Part shown: in pieces, positions 6,358-27,638 of the stretch | Position numbering within the stretch: position 1 is the first letter of the stretch | Layout: every line of letters begins with the position of its first letter | NCBI GenBank assembly: GCA_026400395.1 | Contig: JAPLPD010000111.1 | Coordinates: 1 to 64,000, forward strand | DNA length: 64,000 nucleotides | Direction: 5' to 3' | From: Alphaproteobacteria bacterium | GTDB lineage: Bacteria > Pseudomonadota > Alphaproteobacteria > Rhizobiales > Xanthobacteraceae | The notes under the pieces: model-generated | What the model saw: the letters and a program-made list of their open reading frames with translations, nothing else | Databases searched by the model: none | What the model was told of the DNA's origin: nothing | Position numbers and translations under genes: made by a program

Positions 6358-6371
6358 GATAGGTTCCTATC
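6358..6371. promoter_or_regulatory. Palindromic operator candidate, probably for the adjacent MarR regulator
   Basis: GATAGG-TT-CCTATC is a perfect six-base-arm inverted repeat in the 141-base space between the divergent hydrolase operon and the marR-type gene. Many MarR proteins bind such short, AT-flanked palindromes between themselves and their target operon. Binding would be expected to repress one or both directions until a ligand, often an aromatic acid or its CoA ester, is bound. No convincing -35/-10 pair was fixed by eye. Confidence 0.6.
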
Positions 6372-6441
6372 TTTCTCCGCCGTTGTCAACGCGGGCGGGC
6401 CGCTGCATGGTGCGCGTCGCGACCCGCCGGAGAAAGTTACA

Positions 6442-6996
6442 GTGGCCAAGAAACGTTCCACATCGAACAGCGGAAAACCGGCATTGGGTCAGCCGCGTTT
6501 CGATCACCTTCGGCTTCAGGAGACGCTCGGATTCCTGCTGTCCGAAGCAACCCGCACGATGACGAGAACCTTCTCGGCGCGAATCGCCGCGCATGGCGTT
6601 GGGATGGGCATCTTTCAGTTTCTCCGAATCCTCTGGGAGGAAGATGGACTGACGCAAAGTCAGTTGGCGGCGCGCACCCGTATGCGCGAGCCCTCGGCGG
6701 CTGACGCCTTGTACGATCTGGAACGGCGCGGCCTGGTCCGTCGGGTCGCCGACCGCAACGACCGGCGGAAGGTGTGCGTCCTGCTCACCGCCGAGGGCCG
6801 CAAGCTCTATGACCTGGTGATGCCCGACATTGCGGCGACCAACGGGATTATGCTGGCGAGTTTCTCCGCGACCGAGCAGGAGTTGTTGAAATCGATGCTG
6901 CGTCGGATCCGGGAGAATCTGGCGGCTGCCGGGACCCGGCCGCCGGTTCAAAAGGTGTCGAAGCACGCGGCCAGCCCGCGCAGCCGGAGTTCCTGA
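6442..6996 (+). CDS. MarR family transcriptional regulator
   Basis: About 184 residues with the MarR winged helix: MGIFQFLRILWEEDGLTQSQLAARTRMREPSAADALYDLERRGLVRRVADRNDRRKVCVLLTAEGRKL, where the DRNDRRK wing is diagnostic. The track ORF begins far upstream inside the antisense of the hydrolase. GTG at 6442 has GGAGA eight bases before it and opens a reasonable VAKKRS N-terminus; ATG at 6355 is a weaker alternative and would overlap the palindrome. It is divergent from the hydrolase/LLM operon and probably controls it through the 6358-6371 palindrome. The C-terminal tail is basic and probably disordered. Confidence 0.9.
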   Translation: MAKKRSTSNSGKPALGQPRFDHLRLQETLGFLLSEATRTMTRTFSARIAAHGVGMGIFQFLRILWEEDGLTQSQLAARTRMREPSAADALYDLERRGLVRRVADRNDRRKVCVLLTAEGRKLYDLVMPDIAATNGIMLASFSATEQELLKSMLRRIRENLAAAGTRPPVQKVSKHAASPRSRSS

Positions 6997-7003
6997 CAGC
7001 CGG

Positions 7004-7315
7004 TCAGCTGCCGGCCTTCTCGCGTCCGCCGAGGCCGGGGCGGTACTTGCCCTCCAGGAAGTAGCCGATCCCTTCGCTGCGCCAGGAATCGTTTTAATGC
7101 AACGTGAGCTGATCGGACTTGCCGCGGAGAACTCGAGCGCTGCCTCGGTGCTCATTTCGAGCGAATGGCGATAGCCTTCTTTGCAGGCGGTCAGCGCATC
7201 GGGGTCCTTGCTGGCGATCCCGCGCGCCAGCGCTATGACCTCGCCCTTGAGATCGGCGAGCGGGTAGGCCGCATTGATGAGGCCGATTTCGGTTCCGCCA
7301 TTTCCACCCCTGGTA
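7004..7315 (-). pseudogene. Enoyl-CoA hydratase/lyase, C-terminal remnant with frameshift and stop
   Basis: The minus strand carries EIGLINAAYPLADLKGEVIALARGIASKDPDALTACKEGYRHSLEMSTEAALEFSA, a clear C-terminal half of the crotonase family (GLVN.....L..EV..LA..IA.K.P.AL...KE..R). A frame change then leads to KSDQLTLH, a stop, and GIGYFLEGKYRPGLGGREKAGS ending at 7004. That tail resembles hydroxycinnamoyl-CoA hydratase/lyases, which cleave feruloyl- or coumaroyl-CoA to aldehydes, but the subfamily call is tentative. The N-terminal half with the oxyanion-hole glycines is missing. It sits immediately downstream of the SDR of the ABC-transport operon, so the original operon probably imported and thiolytically shortened a phenylpropanoid-like acid. 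Confidence 0.75.
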
Positions 7316-7348
7316 TGAATGAATTCAGTCGGCGGTTTTTCGACGCTC

Positions 7349-8182
7349 TCACCAGCCGGCGGGGCTGCCGACGTTCTCAGGCGGCTCACGCTGCAATCGC
7401 TCGGTGTCCCATTCCTTGGCAACGATCCGGCGTCCGCTGACGCCGTCCGAATGCGATGACATCAGCCAAACGATCGGCGCCGTCATGACCTCCGGCTGAA
7501 TGAGGGTGGCGCGATCGGTCACCTCGGCCTGCGGGATCATGCGGGTGTTGGCGGGGCCTCCGGGCAGCAGGGCGTTGACGGTGACGCCGGTTCCGGCCAG
7601 ATCCTTCGCCCAGATCACGGTGGCGGATTCGAGCGCCGCCTTCGACGGCCCGTAGGGAGAAAATCCGTCCATCATCATGGTGTAGAAGCTGGTTACGATA
7701 TTGACGATTCGGCCGAAGCCTTGCTCGATCAGCTTCGGCGCGATGGCCTTGGCCATCATGAAGGCGCCGTTGAAGTTGGCGTCGATCGCCTTGCGCCAGG
7801 TGTCGGCCTCGACCTCGTAGAAGCGTTTACGGCTGCCGACCAGGACGTTTCCGATGTTCTGCATGCCGATGCCGGCGTTGTTGACCAGACCATGTATGGC
7901 GCCGAACTTGCCGGCCGTCGTGTTTACCGCGTTGACGCAGTCTTGCCACTGCGTGACGTCGCACTCGACATAGATCAGCCGACCCTGAAGTCCCTCGGTG
8001 GCAGCTTGATTCAACAGCTCGCGCGCCTCTGAGGCGCTCACCGGCAGATCGGCGACGGCAACGCGAACGCCGTTCCGGATCAAGGCCAGCGTCATCGCTC
8101 GGCCGAGGCCACGCGTTCCTCCGGTGACGATGACCACCATCCCGGGCGGATTTATAGATTCATGCGCTGATGCTCGGGCCAA
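7349..8182 (-). CDS. SDR family oxidoreductase
   Basis: A 277-residue short-chain dehydrogenase with GGTRGLGRA for the cofactor, ECDVTQW, NNAGIG, the catalytic Ser in VTSF, and the YGPSK Tyr/Lys pair. The tail (GRRIVAKEWDTERLQREP) is slightly longer than usual. The track start at 8182 is a TTG with GGAG about ten bases before it; the ATG at 8140 (MVVIVTGG) would leave almost no residues before the first strand, so the TTG is kept, with doubt. It is 66 bases downstream of the LivF-type ATPase gene, suggesting co-transcription with the uptake operon. The substrate is unknown. Confidence 0.88.
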   Translation of the reverse strand: MARASAHESINPPGMVVIVTGGTRGLGRAMTLALIRNGVRVAVADLPVSASEARELLNQAATEGLQGRLIYVECDVTQWQDCVNAVNTTAGKFGAIHGLVNNAGIGMQNIGNVLVGSRKRFYEVEADTWRKAIDANFNGAFMMAKAIAPKLIEQGFGRIVNIVTSFYTMMMDGFSPYGPSKAALESATVIWAKDLAGTGVTVNALLPGGPANTRMIPQAEVTDRATLIQPEVMTAPIVWLMSSHSDGVSGRRIVAKEWDTERLQREPPENVGSPAGW

Positions 8183-8248: not shown

Positions 8249-8938
8249 TCACACACCGAGGTACCTGGTCTTGGTTTCCGCATCGTCCGCAAGCTCTGCG
8301 GGCGAGCACTGATGGACGATACGGCCCTTGCTCATGATGAACACGACATCGGCGTAGCGCAGAGCGAAGGCCAATTGCTGCTCGACGAGCAGGATCGAAG
8401 TGCCGGCATTCTTGAGCGCCTCGATGGTGCGGCCGAGCTCGCGCACCATCATCGGCGCCAATCCCTCCGTTGGTTCATCCATCAGCAGCAGCGCCGGATT
8501 TCCGACCAGGGCGCGCGCCGCCGCGAGCATCTGCTGTTCGCCACCGCTGAGCTTGCCGGCGAGGCTACGCAGCCGGCTGTGCAGGTTGGGAAACAGCTCG
8601 ACCACCTTGTCGAAGCCCCACCGGCCATGTCCGCGCGCGGCGACCTCGAGGTGCTCCTTCACGCTGAGGGAACGGAACACATGACGGCCCTGCGGCACCA
8701 GCCCGACGCCGAGGCGGGCGATGCGGTGCGACGGCATGTTGGTGATGTCGGTATCCTTGAAAAGGATGGTGCCGCGCTTTGCCGGCGTAAGCCCGATGAT
8801 GGAGCGCACCAAAGTCGTCTTACCGACGCCGTTGCGGCCGAGCAGGGCGACCACCTGACCAGGCTTCAATTCGAGCGACACACCCTGAAGGATGTAGCTG
8901 TCGCCGTAGTAGGTGTGAACGTCTTTGATGCTCAGCAT
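8249..8938 (-). CDS. Branched-chain-type ABC transporter ATP-binding protein (LivF type)
   Basis: A 229-residue ABC ATPase of the HAAT/LivF kind: Walker A GRNGVGKTT, the signature LSGGEQQMLAAARAL, Walker B LLLMDEPTEGLAP and the switch region LLVEQQLAFALRYAD. It should pair with the LivG-type subunit on the cytoplasmic face of a LivHM pore. Its ATG lies two bases from the end of the restored LivG frame. LivF appears intact, whereas its LivG partner is damaged. The neighbourhood (CoA enzymes, SDRs) points to an aromatic or short organic acid as cargo in place of leucine; that is inference. Confidence 0.93.
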   Translation of the reverse strand: MLSIKDVHTYYGDSYILQGVSLELKPGQVVALLGRNGVGKTTLVRSIIGLTPAKRGTILFKDTDITNMPSHRIARLGVGLVPQGRHVFRSLSVKEHLEVAARGHGRWGFDKVVELFPNLHSRLRSLAGKLSGGEQQMLAAARALVGNPALLLMDEPTEGLAPMMVRELGRTIEALKNAGTSILLVEQQLAFALRYADVVFIMSKGRIVHQCSPAELADDAETKTRYLGV

Positions 8939-8939
8939 G

Positions 8940-9651
8940 CTAGTCAGCGCCGAGGTAGATTTCGGTGACGTGAGGATCGTTGCGGATGGTGGCTACGTCG
9001 CCGTCCGCGATCAAACGTCCCTGGTGGAGGACGGATCATCAGGATTGTCATCTCGCTCGGCAGGCTGCGGATCATGCCGACGACGCGGACAACCTCGGCC
9101 GCCGACAGGCCGGCGGTGGGTTCGTCCAACAACAGCACCTTCGGCTGAACCGCCATGGCGAGGATGAGGTCGATCTGGCGTTTTTCTCCGTAGGAGATTT
9201 CTTGGGTGGTCCTTCCGGCGATCGAGGTGAGATCCCATTTTTTCAGCAGCGCGTCGGCCATCTGAAACAGGTGACGGTTGGCGCCCATGCGCTTGAGCAT
9301 GGAAAACGCCGATGGTTCGGGGGCTTGTAGGGCGAGTAGGATGTTTTCCAGGACCGTCAGGCGCGGGAACAGATTGGTGATTTGAAACGTCCGGGCGAGC
9401 CCCAGTCTGGCGCGCTCGTAGGCCGGGAGTTCGGTGATGTCGCGGCCGAACAGTGTGATCGTGCCGCTCGACACCGGAAAGCTGCCGGCCAGCATGTTGA
9501 ACAGCGTGGTCTTGCCGGCTCCATTGGGCCCGATGATGAGGCGGCGCTCCTGCGGCGCGACGGACAGCGAAACGTCGGACAGCGCCCGCACGCCGCCGAA
9601 ATTCTTGGACACGGCTTCGATCGCGAGGGCGCTCACCGTTCGGGCGCTCAA
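8940..9651 (-). pseudogene. LivG-type ABC ATPase with internal frameshifting deletion
   Basis: Intact up to MTILMI: SALAIEAVSKNFGGVRALSDVSL, Walker A GPNGAGKTT, the signature region EISYGEKRQIDLILAMAV and Walker B VLLLDEPTAGL. After MTILMI (near 9040) the ORF-track frame degenerates (RPPPGTFDRGRRRSHH), while another frame gives the proper tail LHQGRLIADGDVATIRNDPHVTEIYLGAD ending at 8940. Between them about 15 residues, including the EHD...F switch-histidine segment, are absent. A deletion of a non-multiple of three is the simplest reading; a sequencing or assembly error cannot be excluded. The start is probably TTG 9651, overlapping the LivM stop as TTGA; GTG 9636 is an alternative. Without the switch histidine the ATPase should be inactive. 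Confidence 0.8.
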
Positions 9652-10613
9652 GGTCCGCTCCTGCGCTTGCGAAGGCTCTCGATAAGTCCGGTCAGGCCGT
9701 TCGGCGTGAACAGGGCAACCAGCACGTAGACAAATCCAAGAATCATCAGCCAACGCTCGGTGTACGTGCTGATGATATTTTCCAGGAGTACAATCGCCGC
9801 CGCGCCCAACGCGGGCCCGATCAAGGTCCCGGCGCCACCCAGGATGACCATCAGCAGGACTTCGGCCGAGCGGGCCACATGGATGTAGTCGGGGCTGACA
9901 AAGCGGTTGTTGAAGACGTAAAGGCAGCCGGCCAACCCCGCGAATGCGGCGGCGAGGACGAAGACTGCGAGCTTGTATCGCCAAACATTATAGCCGAGTG
10001 CCAGCATTCGCGTTTCGCTTTCGCGGATTCCCCGCAAGGCGCAGCCGAACGGCGACGACACTATGCGAACGAGCAATAGCGTGCCTACGACAACGAAAAA
10101 CAGTACGAAGTAATAGAACGGCGTGCTGTCCGCCATTGACCAGGGCAGCGGCAGGTTCGGCCGCGGCACCTCGGGAAGGCCGTCGTCACCGCCGGTGAGC
10201 GAACGCCAGCCGAAGGCGATTCCCCACACCACCTGCGATAGAGCGAGCGTGATCATCAGGAAATAGCTGCCCCGCGTCCGCAACGCCAGCAGGCCCAGCA
10301 AGAGCGCCGTCAGCGCGGCCATAAGAATGCCCGCCGGCAGCGTGAGCCAAACGCTCCACCCCAACTTCAGCGCCAAAAGACCGGTGACATAGGCCGCCAT
10401 CCCGAAGTAGGCGGCATGTCCTAACGAGGCCATGCCGGTGTATCCCAACAGCAGATCGAGGCTCATCGCGAATAACGCGAAGATCATCATTTTAATCACC
10501 AGCCCGAGATAGTAGGGCGGCAGAAAATAGGGCAAGGCCAGCAGCACGGCGGTCCCGATCAGGGCGATTACCGCGAACTTCCGGCCGGACATATGGGGGA
10601 GGAGATTTGTCAT
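9648..10613 (-). CDS. Branched-chain-type ABC transporter permease (LivM type)
   Basis: A 321-residue integral membrane protein with about eight to ten hydrophobic segments and the LivM hallmarks: MSLDLLLGYTGMASLGHAAYFGMAAYVTGLLA near the start, GIRESETRMLALGYNVWRYKLAVFVLAAAFAGLAG for the cytoplasmic coupling loop, and EVLLMVILGGAGTLIGPALGAA. Its ATG shares four bases (ATGA) with the LivH stop, and its stop overlaps the start of the LivG gene. It forms the pore together with LivH. Confidence 0.93.
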   Translation of the reverse strand: MTNLLPHMSGRKFAVIALIGTAVLLALPYFLPPYYLGLVIKMMIFALFAMSLDLLLGYTGMASLGHAAYFGMAAYVTGLLALKLGWSVWLTLPAGILMAALTALLLGLLALRTRGSYFLMITLALSQVVWGIAFGWRSLTGGDDGLPEVPRPNLPLPWSMADSTPFYYFVLFFVVVGTLLLVRIVSSPFGCALRGIRESETRMLALGYNVWRYKLAVFVLAAAFAGLAGCLYVFNNRFVSPDYIHVARSAEVLLMVILGGAGTLIGPALGAAAIVLLENIISTYTERWLMILGFVYVLVALFTPNGLTGLIESLRKRRSGP

Positions 10614-11464
10614 TCACGCCCGAACAGGCCGGCAGGACGCACCGCCAAGATCAGCGCCATCGGCGCGAAAATGGTGAACAGCGCGAATTCCGGAAAGAAG
10701 ACCTTCCCGAAATTGTCGAGCAGTCCTACGATCAGCCCGCCCGCCAGGGCACCCTTCAGGCTTCCCAGCCCGCCGATGATCACTACGACGAAGCCCAACA
10801 ACATCACCTCGAAATCTGCCCCGGGGTAGACGCCCATGATGGGGCCACCCATGACGCCGCCCAGGGCTGCGAGAAATGCGCCCAACGCAAACACCATGGT
10901 AAAAAGCAACGACACGTTGATTCCCAAGGCCCGGGCGGTCTCCTCGTCGTCGACGCCGGCGCGCAGCATCGCGCCGACGCGCGTGCCTTCCTGCATCCAC
11001 CACAGAAGCCCGGCGATGGCGAAGCCGAATCCGATGATGAACAGCCGATAGGACGGATAGAAGAACGCGCCGAATTGCACCGACTCGCTGAACATCGCCG
11101 GTTTCGGCATCGTTTGCGGATTGCCGCCCCAGATGACGATCGCCAGGTCGGAAAATATGAAAAGGAAGCCGAAGGTGAGGAGGGTCTGCGGCAACTCCTG
11201 AAGATGAAAGCGGCGGAGCAGGAAACGCTCCATCAGGGCGCCGAGCAGCGCGATCGAGAGACTTCCGACCAGCACCGCGAGCAGCAGGCTCCCGGTGAGA
11301 TGGACCACGGCCAAGCCGATGTAGCCGCCGAGCAAATAGAAAGAGCCGTGCGTCAGATTCAGGATCTTCATTAATCCGTAGATGAGCGAAAGTCCCGATG
11401 CCAGCAGGAACAGCAGCATCCCGAACGAGATGCCGTTCAGAGTTTGGATCACCCAGAACATCAT
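10610..11464 (-). CDS. Branched-chain-type ABC transporter permease (LivH type)
   Basis: A 284-residue hydrophobic permease with family signs: LASGLSLIYGLMKILNLTHGSFYLLGGYIGL, the coupling helix GTRVGAMLRAGVDDEETARALGINV, and MLLGFVVVIIGGLGSLKGALAGGLIVGLLDNFG. It is the partner of the LivM-type permease and the first membrane gene after the binding protein. A 130-base gap separates it from the binding-protein stop at 11598, so partial termination or a second promoter there is possible, but I could not see one. Confidence 0.93.
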   Translation of the reverse strand: MMFWVIQTLNGISFGMLLFLLASGLSLIYGLMKILNLTHGSFYLLGGYIGLAVVHLTGSLLLAVLVGSLSIALLGALMERFLLRRFHLQELPQTLLTFGFLFIFSDLAIVIWGGNPQTMPKPAMFSESVQFGAFFYPSYRLFIIGFGFAIAGLLWWMQEGTRVGAMLRAGVDDEETARALGINVSLLFTMVFALGAFLAALGGVMGGPIMGVYPGADFEVMLLGFVVVIIGGLGSLKGALAGGLIVGLLDNFGKVFFPEFALFTIFAPMALILAVRPAGLFGRE

Positions 11465-11597
11465 TGCGCCGGAACCGCGCCGCGTGGCCGTGATCGAACT
11501 TCACGCCCGCCGCGCGATGTGTTGGCCTTGGCTCAAGTCGACTGATAGGCGGATATCCAATCCGCGCGTCGATCGTACTTGCCGCGATTGAGGCGTC

Positions 11598-16222: not shown

Positions 16223-17443
16223 CTAGCCGACTCTTTGCAATTCCTGAGAGAACGCATGAAGGGAGCGAGCTCCGGTGTCGGTGATCACCACGGTGTCGGC
16301 GAACACAGCGCCGGTCTCGCCATTACGCCATTTCGGATCGAACAGGTCGATGTTGAAGGCGAACACCATCCCGGTCTTGAACTCGCCACCGATCGTTGCC
16401 AGCGCGGCTTGATCGGCCTTGAGCGCGTGGAAGCGATAACGGGGATACTCCAGCGAGGCAAGGCCATGTCCGTGGATACCAGTCTCGCAAATGCCTAGCT
16501 TGGCATCGTCGATGACGTGCTTCACCTTGTTCATGCAGTCGACGATGGACTTGCCGGGGCCGAACAGTTCCATGCCGCGGCGGAAAGCTGCGAGGCAACC
16601 GTCATGGATACGCTGCGTCTCCTTGTCCGGCTCACCGAGGCAGAACGTGCGCTCCACGTGGGTGAAGTAACCGCCGATCTTCGGATGGATCTCGCAGATG
16701 ATAAGGTCTCGCGCCTCCATCGGCCGCGTTGTTGGCAACCGGAATGGATGCGGTAACGGATATCGATCGCAGGCCCAGAGGAACAGCGTCGGCTCCTCGC
16801 CGCCGTCGGCAAGCATCGCCTCCATCATGCCGGCATGCACTTCAGATTCGCGAACGCCCGGCCGCGCGCGATTGCTGCAGGCTTGCAGCATCTTGTCGCC
16901 AAGCGCAGCTGCCTTTTCGAGCTGAGCGATTTCCTCGGCGCTCTTGATCGACCGCGTCGTCTCCAGCAGATCGCCGAGATCGACGAAGCGCACATTCGGT
17001 AGAGCCGACTTGACTGACTCGTAGATGCTGTGGGGCAGCCAGCCGTCCGGATCGAGAGGCCCGGCGAGGCCGTCCATGCCGATTGTTGCGCGCTCGAGGC
17101 CCATTTCCTTCAGACGCGTGACCACCGTCTCCGCCCATGTGCCGCGGCGGGACCGTACGTCGCCGACCCAGTCCTGGGCGCGCTTCCAGTATTCGACGAA
17201 GGTAGGCATGAAGACGAAGGATGTGGGCTCGCCTTCCAACGGGAAGATCAGCGTGTTGTTCTCCGCATTGCCGCCGATCGGACAAAGATAGCGGGCGTTG
17301 GCGGTCGTGAAGTCCCACATCGCGGGCCAGCCCCAAAGGACGAGGCACTCGATGCCCTGTGCGCGCATCTGCTTGCGCGTGATGGACCAACGTCTGTCAC
17401 GCTCGGCCATGGACATGCGGGGCAGCTCGAGGCGATCACGCAT
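16223..17443 (-). CDS. M24 (pita-bread fold) hydrolase lacking most metal ligands
   Basis: About 406 residues with an N-terminal creatinase-type domain and a C-terminal M24 domain. The ATG at 17443 (MRDRLELPRMSMAERDRRW) is chosen over the track start, which overlaps the upstream flavoprotein further. Compared with the standard M24 ligand set Asp-Asp-His-Glu-Glu, this protein has Glu (IICEIHP), His (GGYFTHVERTF), a His-rich HGHG segment, Asn (MVFAFNID) and Ala (GAVFADTVVIT). Four of five ligands are therefore altered. Creatinase is the known precedent for a metal-free member, so an amidohydrolase-like reaction on a small C-N compound is more likely than peptidase activity. The second M24 gene in this window, near 55 kb, keeps all five ligands. 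Confidence 0.88.
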   Translation of the reverse strand: MRDRLELPRMSMAERDRRWSITRKQMRAQGIECLVLWGWPAMWDFTTANARYLCPIGGNAENNTLIFPLEGEPTSFVFMPTFVEYWKRAQDWVGDVRSRRGTWAETVVTRLKEMGLERATIGMDGLAGPLDPDGWLPHSIYESVKSALPNVRFVDLGDLLETTRSIKSAEEIAQLEKAAALGDKMLQACSNRARPGVRESEVHAGMMEAMLADGGEEPTLFLWACDRYPLPHPFRLPTTRPMEARDLIICEIHPKIGGYFTHVERTFCLGEPDKETQRIHDGCLAAFRRGMELFGPGKSIVDCMNKVKHVIDDAKLGICETGIHGHGLASLEYPRYRFHALKADQAALATIGGEFKTGMVFAFNIDLFDPKWRNGETGAVFADTVVITDTGARSLHAFSQELQRVG

Positions 17444-19325
17444 GAGGTAAGCTCCGTTGAATTTCAGGCGCGTTCCAATGGCTCGGGTTCGGCGCGCCCT
17501 GCCGACGAACAAGTTTTCGGCGTCGCGGTTGCGGTGGCAGGAAACCTTCCAGGTCGGCTTTGATCAACAGCGCAGTGTAGTGCGAATACGCCCGCGCCGC
17601 TGGAAACCCGCCGCCGACCACGAAGAAACCCTCCTGAGCGGTTCGAGCGTACATGTTGCGGAGTTCGCCGTCGGCGCCGATCCCCCAGATCGGGCCGACG
17701 CGGTCGGCCATGTCATCGCCGAACATGGCGCGGACAGCCTCCTGGAGCGGCTGATAGCCCGTCGCGAGCACGAGAATATCGGCGTTCACCGGGCTACCGT
17801 CGGAGAACATTACTTTGTTCTTCGTCAGCCTCTCAATTTCGACACCGACCTTTAACTTGATCTTTCCCTGGATGATCAGATCGGATGCGCCGACGTTCAA
17901 GTAATAGCCGGACTGGGAGCGCAGCAATTTCAGGAAATAGCCGGTGTCATCTTCACCGTTATCGAGCAGAAAGCCAACCTTCATCAAGCCGGCGAGCAAT
18001 TCTTTGTCTTCTTCCGCCATCTGTCGGCTCAACGGACGGTGCAGCCGCGCCAGCAGATCGTAGGGCACCGAGCCGGTCATCAAGTCGGTGTCGGCGATCG
18101 GCCGAACCCCTTCGTTTCGGCGATACATCTCGTAGGCGCGAACCGAACTGGGCTCGAGGCTCACGACCGTGACCGACGAGCGTTGCAACATGGTCACGTC
18201 GGCGCCCCGCAGGTGCAGATTCTGCGCGATATCATGCCCGCTGGTGCCGGCGCCGACAACGACAACCGACTTGCCTTTGACGTCCAGATCGTCGGAGTCT
18301 CCGCTGGAGTGAAGGATCGTTCCGCCGAATTCCTCCATTCCCTTTAGCGCGGGGATGTTCGGAATGCCGCTGACGCCCATCGCCATGATGACGTGGCGCG
18401 GCCGCATGGTCTTGATGTTGCCGTCCGCGAGCCGCAGCCGCACCGTCCATCGCTTGTTCGAATGAACGTACTCGCCGCCCAGGAACGAGGTGCTGGTCCA
18501 GACATTGAGCTCCATGCTCTCGGCATAGAACTCAAACCAATCCGCCAGCTTGTCCTTGGGGAGAAACACCGGCCACGTGTCTGGAAACGGCATGTATGGA
18601 AAATGGTTCATGCAGATTTCATTATGCAGCTTCAGCGAGTGATAACGCTTGCGCCAGACATCCCCGATCCGTTCGGATTTATCGACCACGAGCGTGCTGA
18701 TGTTAAGCTGACCGAGCCTGGCCGCCATCATCAGCCCGGATTGTCCAGCGCCGATGATGATGACGTCCGGATCTTTGTGCCTGAATTTGCGCGTTGCGTT
18801 TCTTTGATCGAGCCAGTTTTCTAGCCCGCGTGATGAGACGCGCATGTCTTCACGCAGGCGGTTTCGTCCAACGGCTTCTGGAAAAGCCTTCAACTCCCTC
18901 ATAGTGGTCAGGATGGTGAACGCTTTCGGAGCTTCGAGTGGGTTCGGATCTGCAACCAGCCTGACAAAGCCGCGACCAAGGGCGACGTTCGTCTCGAACC
19001 CGAAGAAGAATTCAAGTGTCTCGCTGTGATCGCCGATGGCGCCGGCCCAAGGTTCTCCCTCCAGTAGAAAGTTACGCGGTGTCGTGGCATCCACGGTGTG
19101 GCGCAGCCACGATTCAACCTCGCTCACACCGTGAAGCGTTCTGAAATCCCAATCGAACGTTAGAAGATCGCGCCAATAGCCATCGTGGTGCATCAGCGCA
19201 GTCACCGCTGCAGATTTTCTCTGCTCCAGCGTCGCTCTCAACGTGGCCAGCCATGCTCGGGCGATCGGACGCTGTTCCCCTGATGATGTGCCGCGCCAGC
19301 TCCCCACGGTAGTCCCCTTCTTCAT
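17436..19325 (-). CDS. FAD-dependent monooxygenase (FMO/BVMO-like) with N-terminal NTF2-like domain
   Basis: A 629-residue protein. Residues about 25-150 resemble an NTF2-like fold (ALMHHDGYWRDLLTFDWDFRTLHG, then a beta-rich part). The rest is a two-dinucleotide flavoprotein: DVIIIGAGQSGLMMAARLG for FAD, GDVWRKRYHSLKLH, FGGTILHSSG as the FMO/Baeyer-Villiger fingerprint F.G...H, VVVVGAGTSGHDIAQNL for NAD(P)H, and VLATGYQPL. It should hydroxylate or insert oxygen using NADPH and O2. It begins the minus-strand run and overlaps the M24 gene by eight bases. The C-terminus (PQPRRRKLVRRQGAPNPSHW) looks unusual and may reflect a late frame change, but the catalytic domains are complete. Confidence 0.9.
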   Translation of the reverse strand: MKKGTTVGSWRGTSSGEQRPIARAWLATLRATLEQRKSAAVTALMHHDGYWRDLLTFDWDFRTLHGVSEVESWLRHTVDATTPRNFLLEGEPWAGAIGDHSETLEFFFGFETNVALGRGFVRLVADPNPLEAPKAFTILTTMRELKAFPEAVGRNRLREDMRVSSRGLENWLDQRNATRKFRHKDPDVIIIGAGQSGLMMAARLGQLNISTLVVDKSERIGDVWRKRYHSLKLHNEICMNHFPYMPFPDTWPVFLPKDKLADWFEFYAESMELNVWTSTSFLGGEYVHSNKRWTVRLRLADGNIKTMRPRHVIMAMGVSGIPNIPALKGMEEFGGTILHSSGDSDDLDVKGKSVVVVGAGTSGHDIAQNLHLRGADVTMLQRSSVTVVSLEPSSVRAYEMYRRNEGVRPIADTDLMTGSVPYDLLARLHRPLSRQMAEEDKELLAGLMKVGFLLDNGEDDTGYFLKLLRSQSGYYLNVGASDLIIQGKIKLKVGVEIERLTKNKVMFSDGSPVNADILVLATGYQPLQEAVRAMFGDDMADRVGPIWGIGADGELRNMYARTAQEGFFVVGGGFPAARAYSHYTALLIKADLEGFLPPQPRRRKLVRRQGAPNPSHWNAPEIQRSLPHA

Positions 19326-19755: not shown

Positions 19756-19832
19756 GGCCCCGTAGCTCAGCTGGATAGAGCAGTCGCCTTCTAAGCGACA
19801 GGTCGCAGGTTCGAGTCCTGCCGGGGTCGCCA
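19756..19832 (+). tRNA. tRNA-Arg (anticodon TCT)
   Basis: A complete cloverleaf can be drawn. The acceptor GGCCCCG pairs with CGGGGTC (one G-U), the D arm is GCTCAGCTGGATAGAGC, and the anticodon arm GTCGC-CTTCTAA-GCGAC has anticodon TCT. The T arm is GCAGG-TTCGAGT-CCTGC, followed by discriminator G and an encoded CCA. It reads AGA codons, which are rare in high-GC genomes. tRNA-Arg genes are common integration targets for genomic islands, and this one separates the decayed catabolic region from the intact right side. Confidence 0.95.
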
Positions 19833-19949
19833 ACTTCAAATTCAAAATAATATTGCTTCCGAAAAGTGTAACCCGGCATGTTACCCCAGAGGCTCGGTTC
19901 GCTTTTGTACTCGTTTTACTTGTTCCTAACATATTGAAATATAGTCATA

Positions 19950-20019
19950 ATTTCAGCCCTCGAAATTCTAGACCTTCAGCTTAGAAGGCTGATGCTCTAT
20001 CCAACTGAGCTACGGGGCC
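19950..20019 (-). pseudogene. Truncated tRNA-Arg(TCT) remnant, inverted relative to the intact copy
   Basis: Reading minus from 20019: GGCCCCGTAGCTCAGTTGGATAGAGCA and then TCAGC-CTTCTAA-GCTGA give a perfect acceptor 5' strand, D arm and anticodon arm with anticodon TCT. After that, neither a T arm nor a matching acceptor 3' strand (expected CGGGGTC-like) appears in the AT-rich sequence that follows. The molecule is therefore cut shortly after the anticodon arm, which is a typical attachment-site break. Its 5' half closely matches the intact tRNA at 19756 but differs in the anticodon stem (TCAGC against GTCGC), so it comes from a related but not identical gene. Confidence 0.75.
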
Positions 20020-20351
20020 AAGCTTTGGCTGCGCCGCTCGCCGGGCGCAGGCCATGCATATCACATTCCGCCGGGAGCGGTCCGCAGGCTTTCGCCACGG
20101 TGGACAACGGTTCCATGGACGGTCGGTCACCGGTTTGAACCTGACCCGCGCCGTGACCGACCCATACACTCGGAGCTGCGGCGCCGCCGTGTCGGCCGGA
20201 AACCCAGGATGGATCAAGCGGATACCCCCTGCATATCGGCCAGCAAAGGTCCGGTGTTACTCGGTCAAGACCTGGACACGATTCAGGATTGTGCTTGGAT
20301 GGTCGCCCCTTCGGAAATTTCCCGTCGAAGGGGGTAGGAGGAATTTGGCCC
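20020..20351. other. Upstream region of the alpha-2-macroglobulin gene
   Basis: About 330 bases with no gene of its own. Plus-strand ORFs beginning at 20054 and 20289 are extensions or shadows, and the minus ORF ending GPVAQLDRASAF is a translated tRNA remnant. It presumably contains the promoter of the A2M-pbpC operon, and it ends with the inverted repeat listed separately. Confidence 0.5.
20306..20333 (+). repeat. Inverted repeat just before the A2M ribosome binding site
   Basis: CCCCTTCG and CGAAGGGG form perfect eight-base arms around the 12-base spacer GAAATTTCCCGT. The right arm ends two bases before the GGAGG-type ribosome site, about 18 bases from the ATG. It may be an mRNA hairpin limiting translation of the long downstream gene, or a DNA operator; the sequence alone does not decide. 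Confidence 0.5.
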
Positions 20352-23300
20352 ATGTTCGCGAATATCCGCGTCGGCCTGGTTGCCGCGCTCGTCAGTATTG
20401 CGTCCATTTCACTGGGTTTAATTCCGGCGTCAGCCGCCGGCAAAGCCTTTCAGCGCGGCGAACTCGACGAAGCCGCGATTAAACTCGAAGCTGAGATCAA
20501 GACCGATGCCGGCTCGCCGGGCAAAGCGGTCGCGCAACTGCGCCGCGACGCCGACGCGGCGTTCCAGAAGAACGACGTGCGCAGCGGCATCGTCATCCTC
20601 GGCCAGATCATCGCACAGGTTCCCGACGACAGCGCCACCTGGTTGCGGCTCTCCCGCGCGATCCAGCAGATTCGCGTGGTGATTGACCGCGATCGTACCG
20701 CGATGCTCGAACGCGCGGGCACCGCCGCTTATATCGCCTATCAGCGGGCCAAGAACCGCGGGGAGGAGGCCGACGCGCTGGTTATAATCGGGCGAAGTTT
20801 CGGCGACCGCCAGGTCTGGCGCCCGTCACTTGATGCGCTGCGGCTCGGTCTCGAATTGCGCGAGACCGCCGACGTTCGCGCGCTCTACGAGAAGATGCGC
20901 GAGGATCACGGCTTCCGCATGCTCGACTACACCATCGACGCGGATTCGGCGTCGCCGCGCGCCTGCTTCCAGTTCTCCGAGTCGCTACCGGAAAAGCGCG
21001 TCGACTTCTCGCCGTTCGTCGCGGTGGCCGGCATGGACAAGCTCGCGCTGTCGGCCGACGACAAGCAACTCTGCGTCGAGGGCTTGAAGCATGGCGAACG
21101 CTACAGCGTGACGTTGCGCGCGGGTCTGCCATCGACCGTCAAAGAGTCGCTGGCGAAATCGGCCGAGCTTACGATCTACGTGCGCGACCGCAAGCCGATG
21201 GCGCGTTTCGCCGGCAAGGCTTACGTGCTGCCGCGCACCGGCCAGCGCGGCATTCCGCTGGTCAGCGTCAATACCAAGGCGGTCAATGTTTCAGTTTACC
21301 GCATCAGCGACCGAAACCTGATCGAGACCGTGCTCGGCCGCGACTTCCAACGCAATCTTTCTCCCTACGAGATCGAACGGCTGACCGACAGCCGCGGCAT
21401 CAAGGTGTGGAGCGGTGAACTTGCCGTTGAGCAGACCCAGAATGCCGAGATCACCACCGCGTTCCCGGTCGATCTGGCGGTCGGTGACATGGCGCCCGGA
21501 GTCTATGTGATGACGGCGCAGGCCAAGGGCACGACCTCCGAAGACTACGACGATATGTCGACCCAGTGGTTCATCGTGTCCGACATGGGGCTCGCTGCCT
21601 ATTCCGGCACCGACGGCATCAACGTGTTCGTGAATTCGCTCGCCTCCACCGAGCCCAAGGGCCAGGTCGAGGTGCGGCTGATGTCGCGCGGCAATGAAGT
21701 GCTCGGCACCAAAAAGAGCGACGCCAACGGCCGCATAGCCTTCGAGGCGGGACTGTCGCGCGGCGAGGGGGCGCTGGCGCCGGCCATGCTGGTCGCGACC
21801 GACGCGAAGGGCGACTATGCTTTTCTCAATCTGAAAGGCCCGGCATTCGATCTGAGCGACCGCGGCGTCACCGGCCGCCCGGCGGCGGCGGGGCTCGACG
21901 CCTTCGTCTATACCGAACGCGGCGTCTATCGCTCGGGCGAAACCGTGCATGTCATGTCGCTGTTGCGCGATGCGCAGGGTGGGGCGGCTTTGAATCTTCC
22001 GCTCACGCTTGTGGTCGAGCGGCCCGACGGCATCGAGTATCGCCGCGTCGCGGTGCCCGATCAGGGGGTCGGCGGTCATGCGCTCGACGTGCTGATCAAT
22101 TCGGCTGCCTCGACCGGCACCTGGCGCGTGCGCGCCTTCACCGATCCGAAGCGCCCGGCCATCGGTGAGACGACCTTCCTGGTCGAAGACTACGTGGCAG
22201 ACCGGCTGGAGTTCGATCTGGCTGCGCCGGAAGGCAAGATCGCCCGCAATGCGCCCGCCAAGCTCACGGTCGATGGCCGCTATCTTTACGGTGCGCCAGC
22301 CTCGGCTCTCGACCTTGAAGGCGAGGTCGTGATCGGACTGGCGAAAGAGCGGGCAGGACTCGCAGGCTATAAGTTCGGTCTTTCCGACGAGGAGATCGAG
22401 ACCAGCCGCAAGCCGCTCGAAGACCTGCCGCAGACCGACGACAAGGGTAAGGCGAGCTTCGAGGTGTCTCTCGACAAGGTGCCGACAACGTCACGGCCCT
22501 TGGAGGCCAAGGTGATTGTGCGGCTCGCCGAATCCGGTGGCCGCGCGGTGGAACGCACCATCACGCTGCCGGTGCTTGCGTCCGGCAATATGATCGGTGT
22601 GAAGCCGCTGTTCTCCGGCCGCTCGCTCGGCGAGGGCGAGAACGCCACCTTCGACGTCGCGCTGGTCGCGCCGGACGGCAAGATGCTGTCGGGTCAGGGT
22701 CTGCGCTTCGAACTGCTCAAGGTGGAGTCGCGTTACCAGTGGTATCGCCGCGACGGCCGCTGGGACTACGAGCCGATCAAGCGCACCCGCCGCGTCGCCG
22801 ACGGTCGTATCGATGTGACGCCCGACAAGCCGGCACGCATCTCGGCGCCGGTGCAGTGGGGCCGCTATCGCCTGGAGGTGTCCAGTGCCGACCCGGACGG
22901 GCCGATGACTTCCATGGGATTCGACGCCGGCTGGTACACCGAAGCGACCGCCGATACGCCGGACATGCTGGAGATCGCGCTCGACAAGGCCGAGTACAAG
23001 GCGGGCGAGTCGATGACGGTGGCCGTGGTGGCGCGTGCCGCCGGCCGCGTTACGCTCAACGTGATGGGCGACAAGCTTCTCAGTTCCGTGACCCAGGAGG
23101 TGACGCCCGGCACAGCGCGGATCAAGTTGCCGGTCGGCTCGGACTGGGGCACCGGCGCCTATGTGGTGGCGACCCTGCGCCGTCCGCTCGACGCCCAGGC
23201 CCAGCGCATGCCGGGCCGCGCCATCGGCGTGCAGTGGTTCTCCATCGACCGCAAGGCGAAGACGCTGGCACTCGATATGAAGCTGCCGGCGCTGCACCGT

Positions 23301-25568
23301 CCGAATACGCAGTTGCGGGTGCCGATCAAGATCGACGGCCTTGGCATGCTCGATCAGGCCCGTGTCGTCGTTGCCGCGGTCGATGTCGGAATCCTGAATC
23401 TGACGAACTACAAGCCGCCAGCGCCGGACGAGTATTATCTCGGCCAGCGCCAGCTCTCGGCGGAGTTGCGCGATCTCTACGGCCAGTTGATCGACGGCAT
23501 GCAGGGCACGCGCGGCCAGATCAAAACCGGCGGCGATGGCGGCGCCGAGCTGAACGGCAGTCCGCCGACACAGGCGCCGCTCGCGCTGTTCTCGGGCATC
23601 GTCGAAGTCCGCTCCGGACAGGCCGAGGTCGTGTTCGACATCCCGGCGTTCGCCGGCAGCGTCCGCGTCATGGCGGTCGCCTGGAGCAAGGACAAGGTCG
23701 GCCGTGCCGTGGGCGACGTCGTCGTGCGCGATCCGGTGGTGCTGACAGCCACTCTGCCGCGGTTCCTGCTCACCGGCGACAAGAGTACGATGAACCTCGA
23801 TCTCGACAACGTCGAGGGCGCGGCGGGTGCTTACAGTCTCGACGTCACCGCCGAAGGCCCGGTCGCCATCGGCGAGGGCGCAGTGAAAAGCCTGCAGCTT
23901 CGCGCCAAGCAGCGCGACCGCGTGGTCGTGCCGCTCAATGCCTCAGGCGCCGGCCCCGCGACCGTCAAGGTCGCTATTAAGGGGCCGGGCAACTTCGCGC
24001 TCGAACGCAGTTACGTGATGAACGTCAAGCCCGCCACCCAGGTGCTGGCGCGGCGGACGGTGAAGCCGATCGCCAAAGGCGAGAGCCTGACGCTGTCGAG
24101 CGATCTGTTCGCCGATCTGGTGCCGGGCACCGGCGGCGTGTCGCTCTCGGTCGGTGTGTCGACCGCGCTGGACGCTGCCACTTTGCTCAAGGCGCTGGAT
24201 CGCTATCCGTATGGCTGCTCGGAACAGATCACCAGCCGGGCGATGCCGCTGCTCTACGTCAATGAACTCGCAAGCGCTGCTCACTTGGCTCTCGACGACG
24301 CCATCGACCAGCGCATCCGCGACGCGATCGACCGCGTGCTGGCGCGTCAGTCGTCGAACGGCTCGTTCGGCCTCTGGGGCATCGGCGGCGACGACGCGTG
24401 GCTCGATGCCTACGTCACCGACTTCCTGACGCGGGCCAAGGAGCGCGGCTTTGCCGTACCGGACGTGGCGTTCAAGCTCGCCATCGACCGGCTGCGCAAT
24501 GTCGTCGCCACGGCGGCAGAGGCTTCCAAGGACGGTGGCCGTGATCTCGCCTACGCACTTTATGTGCTGGCGCGAAACGGCGCCGCACCGCTCGGCGACC
24601 TGCGGTATCTGGCCGACGCCAAGCTCGACGATCTGGCAACGCCGATCGCTAAAGCGCAGATCGCCGCGGCGTTGGGGCTGCTCGGCGATCGTGTACGCGC
24701 CGAGCGCGTCTACAAGGCGGCGCTCGACGATCTGAAGCCGCCGGCGCAGACTGAAATGTTCAGCCGCGCCGACTACGGCTCGACATTGCGTGATGCGGCG
24801 GCGCTGGTGACGCTCGCCAGCGAAGCGGGCGGCTCACGGCCGATGATCGTCAACGCGGTGGCGAAGATCGAGCAGGCGAGGGCGCGTGCGCCCTACACCT
24901 CGACCCAGGAGAATGCCTGGCTGGTGATGGCGGCGCGCGCGATGGCCAAGGATGCCGGGGGCGTGTCGCTCAACGTGGCTGGCTCCGACGTCAAGGGCGC
25001 GCTCTATCGCAGCGTCAAGGCGAGCGATCTGGCTCAACCGTTGAAGGTGACCAACACCGGGGAAGCGCCGTTGCAGGCGGTTCTCTCGGTCTCCGGCTCG
25101 CCGACCGTGCCGGAGCCCGCGGCGGAAAGCGGCTTCAAGATCGAGCGGCTTTATTACACGCTCGATGGCGACGAGGCCGACCCGACCAAGGCCAAGCAGA
25201 ACCAGCGCTTCGTCGTGGTGCTCAAGATCACCGAGCCCGATGCGCAGTTCGGCCGCGTGCTGGTGGCCGACTATCTGCCGGCGGGATTCGAGATCGACAA
25301 TCCGCGTCTTGTCTCAACGGGTGAGACCGGTACGCTGTCGTGGATCGAGAACGCTAAGGCGCCGTCGTACTCGGAATTCCGCGACGAACGGTTCAGCGCG
25401 GCGTTCGAGCGGCGTCCGAAGGATCCGCCGGTGTTTTCGGTGGCTTATGTGGTGCGGGCGGTATCGCCCGGGCGCTACGTGCTGCCGCAGGCCTACGTCG
25501 AGGACATGTATCGGCCCGATCGCTTTGGCAGGACCGGCACGGGCACCATCGAGATCGCGCCGAAGTAA
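20352..25568 (+). CDS. Bacterial alpha-2-macroglobulin family protein (YfhM type)
   Basis: About 1738 residues, exported. The signal peptide MFANIRVGLVAALVSIASISLGLIPASAA has no lipobox Cys, unlike the lipoprotein YfhM of Escherichia coli, so it is probably soluble in the periplasm. It has MG-type beta domains (DRGVTGRPAAAGLDAFVYTERGVYRSGETVHVMSLLRD, the conserved A2M Y..R.iYRpGe block), then the thioester site YPYGCSEQ with Cys near residue 1289, followed by an alpha-helical thioester domain (LARQSSNGSFGLWG, DAWLDAYVTDFL) and a C-terminal receptor-like part. It traps attacking proteases covalently. ATG 20352 with GGAGG upstream is preferred to the track start. It is three bases ahead of pbpC, the standard A2M partner. 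Confidence 0.95.
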   Translation: MFANIRVGLVAALVSIASISLGLIPASAAGKAFQRGELDEAAIKLEAEIKTDAGSPGKAVAQLRRDADAAFQKNDVRSGIVILGQIIAQVPDDSATWLRLSRAIQQIRVVIDRDRTAMLERAGTAAYIAYQRAKNRGEEADALVIIGRSFGDRQVWRPSLDALRLGLELRETADVRALYEKMREDHGFRMLDYTIDADSASPRACFQFSESLPEKRVDFSPFVAVAGMDKLALSADDKQLCVEGLKHGERYSVTLRAGLPSTVKESLAKSAELTIYVRDRKPMARFAGKAYVLPRTGQRGIPLVSVNTKAVNVSVYRISDRNLIETVLGRDFQRNLSPYEIERLTDSRGIKVWSGELAVEQTQNAEITTAFPVDLAVGDMAPGVYVMTAQAKGTTSEDYDDMSTQWFIVSDMGLAAYSGTDGINVFVNSLASTEPKGQVEVRLMSRGNEVLGTKKSDANGRIAFEAGLSRGEGALAPAMLVATDAKGDYAFLNLKGPAFDLSDRGVTGRPAAAGLDAFVYTERGVYRSGETVHVMSLLRDAQGGAALNLPLTLVVERPDGIEYRRVAVPDQGVGGHALDVLINSAASTGTWRVRAFTDPKRPAIGETTFLVEDYVADRLEFDLAAPEGKIARNAPAKLTVDGRYLYGAPASALDLEGEVVIGLAKERAGLAGYKFGLSDEEIETSRKPLEDLPQTDDKGKASFEVSLDKVPTTSRPLEAKVIVRLAESGGRAVERTITLPVLASGNMIGVKPLFSGRSLGEGENATFDVALVAPDGKMLSGQGLRFELLKVESRYQWYRRDGRWDYEPIKRTRRVADGRIDVTPDKPARISAPVQWGRYRLEVSSADPDGPMTSMGFDAGWYTEATADTPDMLEIALDKAEYKAGESMTVAVVARAAGRVTLNVMGDKLLSSVTQEVTPGTARIKLPVGSDWGTGAYVVATLRRPLDAQAQRMPGRAIGVQWFSIDRKAKTLALDMKLPALHRPNTQLRVPIKIDGLGMLDQARVVVAAVDVGILNLTNYKPPAPDEYYLGQRQLSAELRDLYGQLIDGMQGTRGQIKTGGDGGAELNGSPPTQAPLALFSGIVEVRSGQAEVVFDIPAFAGSVRVMAVAWSKDKVGRAVGDVVVRDPVVLTATLPRFLLTGDKSTMNLDLDNVEGAAGAYSLDVTAEGPVAIGEGAVKSLQLRAKQRDRVVVPLNASGAGPATVKVAIKGPGNFALERSYVMNVKPATQVLARRTVKPIAKGESLTLSSDLFADLVPGTGGVSLSVGVSTALDAATLLKALDRYPYGCSEQITSRAMPLLYVNELASAAHLALDDAIDQRIRDAIDRVLARQSSNGSFGLWGIGGDDAWLDAYVTDFLTRAKERGFAVPDVAFKLAIDRLRNVVATAAEASKDGGRDLAYALYVLARNGAAPLGDLRYLADAKLDDLATPIAKAQIAAALGLLGDRVRAERVYKAALDDLKPPAQTEMFSRADYGSTLRDAAALVTLASEAGGSRPMIVNAVAKIEQARARAPYTSTQENAWLVMAARAMAKDAGGVSLNVAGSDVKGALYRSVKASDLAQPLKVTNTGEAPLQAVLSVSGSPTVPEPAAESGFKIERLYYTLDGDEADPTKAKQNQRFVVVLKITEPDAQFGRVLVADYLPAGFEIDNPRLVSTGETGTLSWIENAKAPSYSEFRDERFSAAFERRPKDPPVFSVAYVVRAVSPGRYVLPQAYVEDMYRPDRFGRTGTGTIEIAPK

Positions 25569-25571
25569 CCG

Positions 25572-27638
25572 ATGAAGCCGGTCCGTATCATCCTCACCAT
25601 CATTGCCGCCGCGGCGTTCGCGGCGGCCGGCGGCGGTGTGTGGTTTGTGCGGTCGCTCGGTCCGGTCCCGGTGCTCGCCGATACCGACCTTTCGACTCAG
25701 GTGCTCGACCGCAACGGCCGGCTCCTGCGCGCCTATGCGACGCCGGACGGCCGCTGGCGGCTGCCGGTGACGGTGTTCGACGTCGATCCGCGCTTCATCG
25801 AGATGTTGCAGATCTACGAGGATCGCCGCTTCCGCAACCATGCCGGCGTCGATCCGCTGGCGATGAGCCGCGCCGCCTGGCAGTTCCTGGCGAGCGCTCG
25901 GGTCATTTCCGGCGGCTCGACCTTGACGATGCAGGTCGCGCGTCTGCTTGAGCCGCGCGCCGAGCGCACCCTCGGCGCGAAACTTCGGCAGATCGTTCGC
26001 GCCCTCGAAATCGAGCGCAACATGAGCAAAGACGAGGTGCTCGGCCTCTACCTGACGCTCGCGCCCTATGGCGGTAATCTAGAGGGCATTCGTGCGGCGT
26101 CGCTCGCCTATTTCGGCAAGGAGCCGAAGAAGCTCTCGCTCGCTGAGGCCGCGCTGCTGGTTGCGTTGCCGCAGTCGCCGGAACTGCGCAGGCCGGACCG
26201 TTCCGCCACAGTGGCCCGCGCGGCGCGCGACCGGGTGCTCGATCGCATCGCCAAGGCTGGCCGCGTCCCCGCGGACGAGGTTGCCTTCGCCAAGCTTGAA
26301 GTCGTTGTTGCCGGACGGCGGCCGATGCCGGCGCTCGCGCCGCACGCCTCCGATCAGACGGTCGCCGCGCTGCCGAAGCAGAAGCTGCACCGGCTGACGA
26401 TCGACGCGGCGCTGCAGAAGAATCTCGAGGATTTGGCCCGCGAGCGGGCGAAGGCGCTCGGCCCCAATATTTCGGTGGCGATCATTGCGGTCGACAACGC
26501 CAGCGGCGAGGTGCTGGCCCGCGTCGCGTCGGCCGATTATTTCGACGAACGGCGCGCGGGGCAGGTCGATATGACCGATGCGCTGCGCTCGCCCGGCTCC
26601 GCGCTCAAGCCGTTCATCTACGGATTGGCCTTCGAGGACGGCATTGCGCATCCGGAAACCCTGATCGAAGATCGCCCGGTTCGTTATGGCGCCTACGCGC
26701 CGGAAAATTTCGATATGACGTTCCAAGGCACGGTGACAACGCGGCGGGCGCTGCAGATGTCGCTCAACGTGCCGGCGGTGTCGCTGCTCGATGGTGTTGG
26801 CGCGAGCCGTCTGAATGCGCGCATTGCACAGGCGGGAGGCACGCTGATGCTGCCGAAGGGCGAGGCACCCGGTCTCGCCATGGCGCTCGGCGGTCTTGGC
26901 ATCAAGCTATCCGACCTCACCATGCTTTATGTTGGTCTCGCTCGCGGCGGCAACGCCGTTTCGCTCGTTGAGCGCATCACAAGCGCCGAGCCGGCCGCGC
27001 CGCGGCGTCTGCTCGACCCGGTGGCGTCCTGGTATCTTGGCAATATCCTGGTCGGCACGCCCCCGCCGGAGAATGCCGCCGGTGGCCGCATCGCGTTCAA
27101 GACCGGCACCTCCTACGGTTATCGGGATGCCTGGTCGGTCGGATTTGACGGCAAGCGCACGATCGGCGTGTGGGTCGGCCGCCCTGACGGGGCGCCGGTT
27201 GCCGGGCTGGTCGGCCGCGTGGCCGCGGCGCCCATCCTGTTCGACGTCTTCGCGCGCCTCGGCCAGCCGGCCGCTCCGCTGCAGCATGCGCCGCGTGGCG
27301 CCGTGTTTTCGACCAGCGCCAAGCTGCCGCCGCCGCTTCGACACTTTCGTCCAAACGGCGTGGTGGCAAGCGACAGCGCTTCGCCACCCCTCCGCATTAT
27401 GTTCCCACCGAACAATGCGCGTCTCGAACTGACGACATTCGAGGGCAAGACCGATCCGTTGGCGTTGAAGATTACGGGCGGCGTCGAGCCGCTGACCGTG
27501 CTGGTCAATGGCGCACCCACGGCCGCGCGCGTCGATCGCCGCACGCTGTTCGTCGATCCGGACGGGCCTGGGTTCCTTCGTTTGACGGTGATCGACGCTC
27601 GCGGCGCCGCCGACAGCGTCATGGTTCGGCTGCAATAA
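25572..27638 (+). CDS. pbpC: Penicillin-binding protein 1C
   Basis: A 688-residue bifunctional peptidoglycan synthase. There is an N-terminal membrane anchor (IILTIIAAAAFAAAGGGVWFV), then a GT51 glycosyltransferase (YEDRRFRNHAGVDPLAMSRAAW, ISGGSTLTMQVARLLEPR, LYLTLAPYGGNLEGIRAASLAYFGKEPKKLSLAEAALLVALPQSP). The transpeptidase has the SxxK box in SPGSALKPF near residue 340, SLN in QMSLNVPA and KTGT near 509, and the PBP1C C-terminal domain follows from about 600 (PLALKITGGVEPLTVLVNGAP). Coupling to the A2M gene fits the idea that the pair repairs wall damage and captures proteases that have entered the periplasm. Confidence 0.96.
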   Translation: MKPVRIILTIIAAAAFAAAGGGVWFVRSLGPVPVLADTDLSTQVLDRNGRLLRAYATPDGRWRLPVTVFDVDPRFIEMLQIYEDRRFRNHAGVDPLAMSRAAWQFLASARVISGGSTLTMQVARLLEPRAERTLGAKLRQIVRALEIERNMSKDEVLGLYLTLAPYGGNLEGIRAASLAYFGKEPKKLSLAEAALLVALPQSPELRRPDRSATVARAARDRVLDRIAKAGRVPADEVAFAKLEVVVAGRRPMPALAPHASDQTVAALPKQKLHRLTIDAALQKNLEDLARERAKALGPNISVAIIAVDNASGEVLARVASADYFDERRAGQVDMTDALRSPGSALKPFIYGLAFEDGIAHPETLIEDRPVRYGAYAPENFDMTFQGTVTTRRALQMSLNVPAVSLLDGVGASRLNARIAQAGGTLMLPKGEAPGLAMALGGLGIKLSDLTMLYVGLARGGNAVSLVERITSAEPAAPRRLLDPVASWYLGNILVGTPPPENAAGGRIAFKTGTSYGYRDAWSVGFDGKRTIGVWVGRPDGAPVAGLVGRVAAAPILFDVFARLGQPAAPLQHAPRGAVFSTSAKLPPPLRHFRPNGVVASDSASPPLRIMFPPNNARLELTTFEGKTDPLALKITGGVEPLTVLVNGAPTAARVDRRTLFVDPDGPGFLRLTVIDARGAADSVMVRLQ

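Follow-up and report, generated by a model that had tools for sequence, protein, structure and literature searches.

A split tRNA-Arg(UCU) gene facing an intact foreign-type copy in a Xanthobacteraceae genome: a probable relic of integration by an element with its own replacement tRNA

Introduction

How does a bacterial genome come to carry an intact tRNA-Arg(TCT) gene face to face with the truncated half of another one? The question is raised by a 64,000-nucleotide stretch of an alphaproteobacterial genome of the Xanthobacteraceae (contig JAPLPD010000111.1 of assembly GCA_026400395.1, G000 below), hereafter the window, where an intact gene on the plus strand faces a 3'-truncated inverted copy on the minus strand (Table 1). 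We propose, with a probability of about 0.8, that this pair was left behind when a mobile element with its own replacement tRNA integrated into the native tRNA gene and split it. An earlier note, made from the sequence of the window, had described the facing pair and read it as an old integration or rearrangement junction involving two different tRNA-Arg genes; the analysis upholds the integration and sharpens it into one where the element splits the host gene and carries the substitute.

Results

The intact gene is the sole ARAGORN call in the whole window. The minus-strand copy reaches 32.7 bits with Rfam (gathering threshold 29) only when the T arm is skipped, and without an ARAGORN call it was ruled out as a complete tRNA, as the earlier note had held. 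It stops in the variable loop, right behind the anticodon arm, and both the T arm and the 3' acceptor strand are absent, again as claimed. Read from 20019 to 19971, this remnant is 98% identical to a native congener gene over tRNA positions 1-49 (E = 1e-17 in this genome), a match far above chance level. The note had extended it to 19950, of which the outer ~21 nt (19950-19970) are not tRNA, and had put the DNA between the copies at 120 bases; it is indeed AT-rich and measures 138 bases. The anticodon stems of the two copies differ (GTCGC/GCGAC versus TCAGC/GCTGA), as had been noticed. The host tRNA gene at this locus is thus disrupted, and the junction does not rebuild it.

The position and the sequence of the two copies tell which one is native. 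In congeners, the tRNA-Arg(TCT) gene is divergent from yfhM-pbpC, on the same strand as the window remnant, and is intact in most of them. More broadly, among 80 related loci, chiefly from Bradyrhizobium and its relatives, the majority have a tRNA-Arg(TCT) upstream of the alpha-2-macroglobulin gene. The remnant is 94-98% identical to the native genes of congeners, versus only 80-89% for the intact window copy, which finds its best matches in other genera (95% in G011 and 91% in G016). Since the remnant has the type and the site of the congener genes and the intact copy is closer to other genera, sequence comparison identifies the broken copy as the native gene and the adjoining intact gene as one of foreign type. 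A pattern search of the assembly returned no other intact TCT gene than the latter, nor was there one among the other tRNA loci read by ARAGORN, which were all but a few low-scoring ones. AGA accounts for 11 of the 8447 codons of the window genes. The cloverleaf fold, the lack of any other TCT gene among those found, and this use of AGA suggest a functional and essential role for the imported tRNA, with which the cell now probably reads its AGA codons.

A complete case is found in the congener G003, which has the same facing tRNA pair with different sequences. There, the native 3' half (C25:8385-8422) adjoins a tyrosine integrase (8561-9838) with arm-binding and catalytic domains, and ~17 kb separate the two native halves. 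The genes of this interval include a primase/helicase-like protein, an internal virion protein, a transglycosylase, and a podovirus-type virion structural protein. Both ends of the element carry the 12-mer CTTCTAAGCTGA, which covers the anticodon loop and the 3' stem and is the attachment core as delimited from these two ends, and GGGAAGC-type repeats, 10-11 bp apart, are present at both of them. Both native halves are truncated. Joined together, the flanks restore a full tRNA that matches the one of G002 at all of its 77 nt, a perfect empty site, and because the sequence past the 3' half runs collinear with G008, the split gene stands at its native place. The intact tRNA-Arg(TCT) of G003 is inverted and lies between the two ends of the element (C25:25171-25247). 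The element is phage-derived, does not rebuild its target gene, and brings its own intact tRNA-Arg(TCT). The G003 open reading frames tested yielded no capsid, portal, or large terminase, so the prophage may be defective. In the window, the core CTTCTAAGCTGA is present at one end only.

The arrangement is not widely conserved, which agrees with the reading in the earlier note. The pattern of the TCT 5' half matched in 131 of 399 family genomes, and two facing copies occurred in 2 of the 131, G000 and G003, the latter with its element. Nearly all pattern-matched genomes have a single TCT gene. These results bear on a chromosomal rearrangement without integrase, in which an inversion or deletion would have brought a second chromosomal tRNA-Arg(TCT) locus up against the native gene and broken the latter. 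We regard it as improbable: with one TCT gene in nearly all pattern-matched family genomes, the second copy must come from outside, its sequence is of foreign type, and the break falls at the anticodon arm, precisely where the integrase element of G003 has cut. The contig of the window has no integrase, and among its left-flank genes are ones located elsewhere in congener chromosomes (75-80% DNA identity, G001:C29 and G005:C2), both of which speak for a rearrangement, but a later rearrangement of the left flank would suit a tRNA-splitting integration just as well.

Whether G000 and G003 descend from one integration or from two is a separate matter. A single ancestral event that has since diverged might be suggested by the alpha-2-macroglobulin gene, for which the closest to that of the window is in G003 (86%), and by the spacers, which align slightly above shuffled sequences (-8.5 versus -14.8, standard deviation 5.0). 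We nevertheless consider it unlikely compared with two separate events, given that the imported tRNAs are only 88% identical, the repeat motifs are unlike (GTAACCC versus GCTTCCC), the two sequences diverge from the native tRNA at different points, and their left-hand gene contents are unrelated.

Other breaks of tRNA-Arg genes were found in the genus. The native gene of G005 breaks off at CTTCTAAG, with a 376-amino-acid integrase behind it, and its 3' half is on another contig, adjoining a different integrase. In G002, the break affects a tRNA-Arg(CCT) gene and lies in the variable loop; an intact CCT gene faces it in inverted orientation (L088 1111-1299), and the two copies are separated by DNA with a pair of TGCCTAGG repeats spaced 11 bp apart. 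G175 and G171 have integrases related to that of G003 in elements that rebuild their target, so the non-rebuilding form is a variant. Two further loci may be mentioned. G005 has a cluster of ~30 tRNA genes (C33; L203 4176-11478) in which almost every isotype is represented, Arg(TCT) and Arg(CCT) among them, and which may supply the tRNA lost through disruption of the native gene. G008 has an intact CCT gene and, inverted so as to face it at a distance of 2.2 kb, a second copy whose anticodon loop has six bases (L084 7571-9934).

Free phages show a related anatomy. Five phage genomes or contigs carry a core mimicking the anticodon stem-loop of tRNA-Arg(TCT), with an intact tRNA-Arg(TCT) ~130 bp away, which makes them candidates for tRNA-dependent lysogeny as judged from their attachment sites. 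In Pseudomonas phage PPpW-3 and Serratia phage MQ-4, a CTTCTAA stem-loop core lies between 12-bp repeat pairs, beside an integrase. Two IMG/VR contigs (L324 and L325) have the same core, repeats, and tRNA, and Enterobacter phage Arya has the core and the tRNA, with no intact integrase annotated there. The tRNA has the same orientation as the core in these phages and viral contigs and is inverted in the window and in G003. The G003 integrase found one relative among viral contigs (44%), at a contig end and without a tRNA, and none of the viral contigs sought for the tRNA variant carried it.

Several observations weigh against an integration at the window locus. No integrase is present on the contig, which begins 19.7 kb left of the pair, a search of this genome did not recover the native 3' half, and nothing recognisable as a phage gene was seen in the window. 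No viral contig with the inverted arrangement came up, and the viral relatives of the G003 structural protein are without a tRNA. In the spacer, one repeat pair was found (TGTAACCC/TGTTACCC, 12 bp apart); it is compatible with a history of integration and is not significant alone, being equalled in 194 of 1000 shuffles. The 3' half and the integrase, which the earlier note had proposed to look for, were not found in this genome and were both found in G003. No CTTCTAA core was found near the other integrases of G000. One match, at G000:C133:3262-3281 (L257, about 1500), was rejected as the missing 3' half: it is the displaced 3' half of tRNA-Gln(TTG), the mark of another tRNA-site island.

The G000 assembly is fragmented, with 369 contigs, and in such a metagenome-derived assembly, contig ends could have been wrongly joined at a tRNA repeat. 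We consider such an artefact very improbable, since no long exact repeat is common to the two copies at the join, and the same architecture is found in the independent assembly of G003, where the native halves match each other, as well as in G002 at a different tRNA.

The DNA left of the pair was ruled out both as the native flank, since the congener flanks are not syntenic with it, and as the same element as in G003, with which it has no homology. The earlier note had also seen a change from decayed to intact genes across the junction; this is weak, because most left-hand open reading frames tested match Pfam across most of the profile. Two long ones in operon-like positions (6367-7422 and 10614-11504), with a fragmentary Pfam match or none, are possibly frameshifted genes (enoyl-CoA hydratase and a second permease). 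The flavin monooxygenase next to the pair has a 46% homologue in G008 (L083 10196-11854). This homologue is part of a 3.7-kb island that occupies the same tRNA site there and has the tRNA 3' half directly repeated at its boundaries.

Table 1. Features of the window around the two facing tRNA-Arg genes, and loci with a similar core in phages and viral contigs
Feature	Position	Strand	Basis
Flavin monooxygenase-like gene, first gene of non-native left flank	17436..19325	-	Pfam; no synteny with congener flanks
Intact tRNA-Arg(TCT)	19756..19832	+	ARAGORN; Rfam 68.9 bits; genome pattern search; matches in other genera
Spacer between copies, proposed element end	19833..19970		Not tRNA; unlike DNA behind congener native genes
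Possible arm-type repeat pair TGTAACCC/TGTTACCC, 12 bp apart (weak)	19867..19886		One pair found
5' remnant of native tRNA-Arg(TCT), tRNA positions 1-49 (49 nt)	19971..20019	-	Congener identity; place beside yfhM-pbpC
12-mer CTTCTAAGCTGA, anticodon loop and 3' side of stem	19976..19987	-	Equals G003 attachment core
Bacterial alpha-2-macroglobulin (yfhM-like), native right flank, attachment-site marker	20289..25568	+	Pfam; congener synteny with tRNA-Arg(TCT)
Penicillin-binding protein 1C-like (pbpC), native right flank	25572..27638	+	Pfam; tblastn in congeners
Phages PPpW-3, MQ-4, Arya, and two IMG/VR contigs	L312 5701-6077, L313 3196-3577, L314 3367-3577, L324 2280-2490, L325 1046-1251		

Discussion

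The architecture of G003, the cut beside an integrase in G005, the CCT pair of G002, and the phages with an anticodon-loop core all point to integration, and by analogy the window would have arisen in the same way as G003. A mobile element, of phage type in G003, would recombine through its tyrosine integrase at the anticodon-loop core of the native tRNA-Arg(UCU) gene. Because so short a core does not let the element restore its target, the native gene would be cut in two, a 5' part, which the window retains, and a 3' part, which was not found in this genome. The element would bring a complete tRNA-Arg(UCU) near its end, and decoding of AGA would pass to this imported tRNA, so that the insertion is viable; the intact gene of the window, 138 bp from the remnant, would lie on such an element. 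Later, the integrase end and the 3' half would have been lost or rearranged in this genome, or were left unassembled, with the imported tRNA as the working gene. Neither the integrase nor the 3' half was found there, so the window is best read as a relic, with an imported tRNA in place of the host gene.

This history has a precedent in the tRNA-dependent lysogeny of actinobacteriophages, in which integration uses a ~10-bp core and the host tRNA is not reconstituted. Viable lysogens then need a phage tRNA of the same isotype, a mechanism shown experimentally in those phages (Guerrero-Bustamante and Hatfull 2024, PMC10865867). G003 has the corresponding sequence features, namely a tyrosine integrase, a core of ~10 bp, and no rebuilt tRNA, and the window has the host-side feature alone. 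The actinobacteriophages use tRNAs for Lys, Ile2, or Leu, whereas tRNA-Arg(UCU) is used here, in an alphaproteobacterial host, and with the tRNA inverted beside the attachment end. In the window, the proposed element is also no longer recognisable. Closer in host is Sinorhizobium meliloti, also an alphaproteobacterium, where prophages like Mesorhizobium phage vB_MloP_Lo5R7ANS disrupt the central part of the tRNA-Leu(UAG) gene and supply an isoacceptor resembling that of unrelated bacteria (PMC11476347). That case concerns Leu(UAG) and not Arg(UCU), and the part of the source drawn on here describes no relic without its prophage in S. meliloti (PMC11476347). The phiLM21-like prophages of the same species rebuild their targets (PMC12429752).

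The tRNA-site genomic islands of the Islander database are likewise tyrosine integrase elements that split a tRNA gene, but they restore the target at one junction (PMC4383910), whereas the native gene of the window stays broken. A classical island of this kind, which would also leave a displaced fragment in direct orientation, is ruled out for the window, whose intact copy has the inverse orientation and belongs to a different sequence type.

The proposed integration would extend a phage strategy described only recently to tRNA-Arg(UCU) and to bacteria of the Xanthobacteraceae type and, by the anatomy of their attachment sites, to Pseudomonas and Serratia phages. It also bears on the replacement of tRNA genes between lineages and on the annotation of half tRNA genes. 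The window may show how such a process can end, with no AGA decoder found in the genome other than the imported tRNA. For the genus as a whole, we see about even odds that integrase elements repeatedly break native tRNA-Arg genes (UCU in G000, G003, and G005, and CCU in the facing pair of G002), that the window has kept the tRNA after the loss of its element, and that a route thereby exists for exchanging an essential single-copy tRNA for a foreign one, with phage-borne tRNAs becoming permanent host genes.
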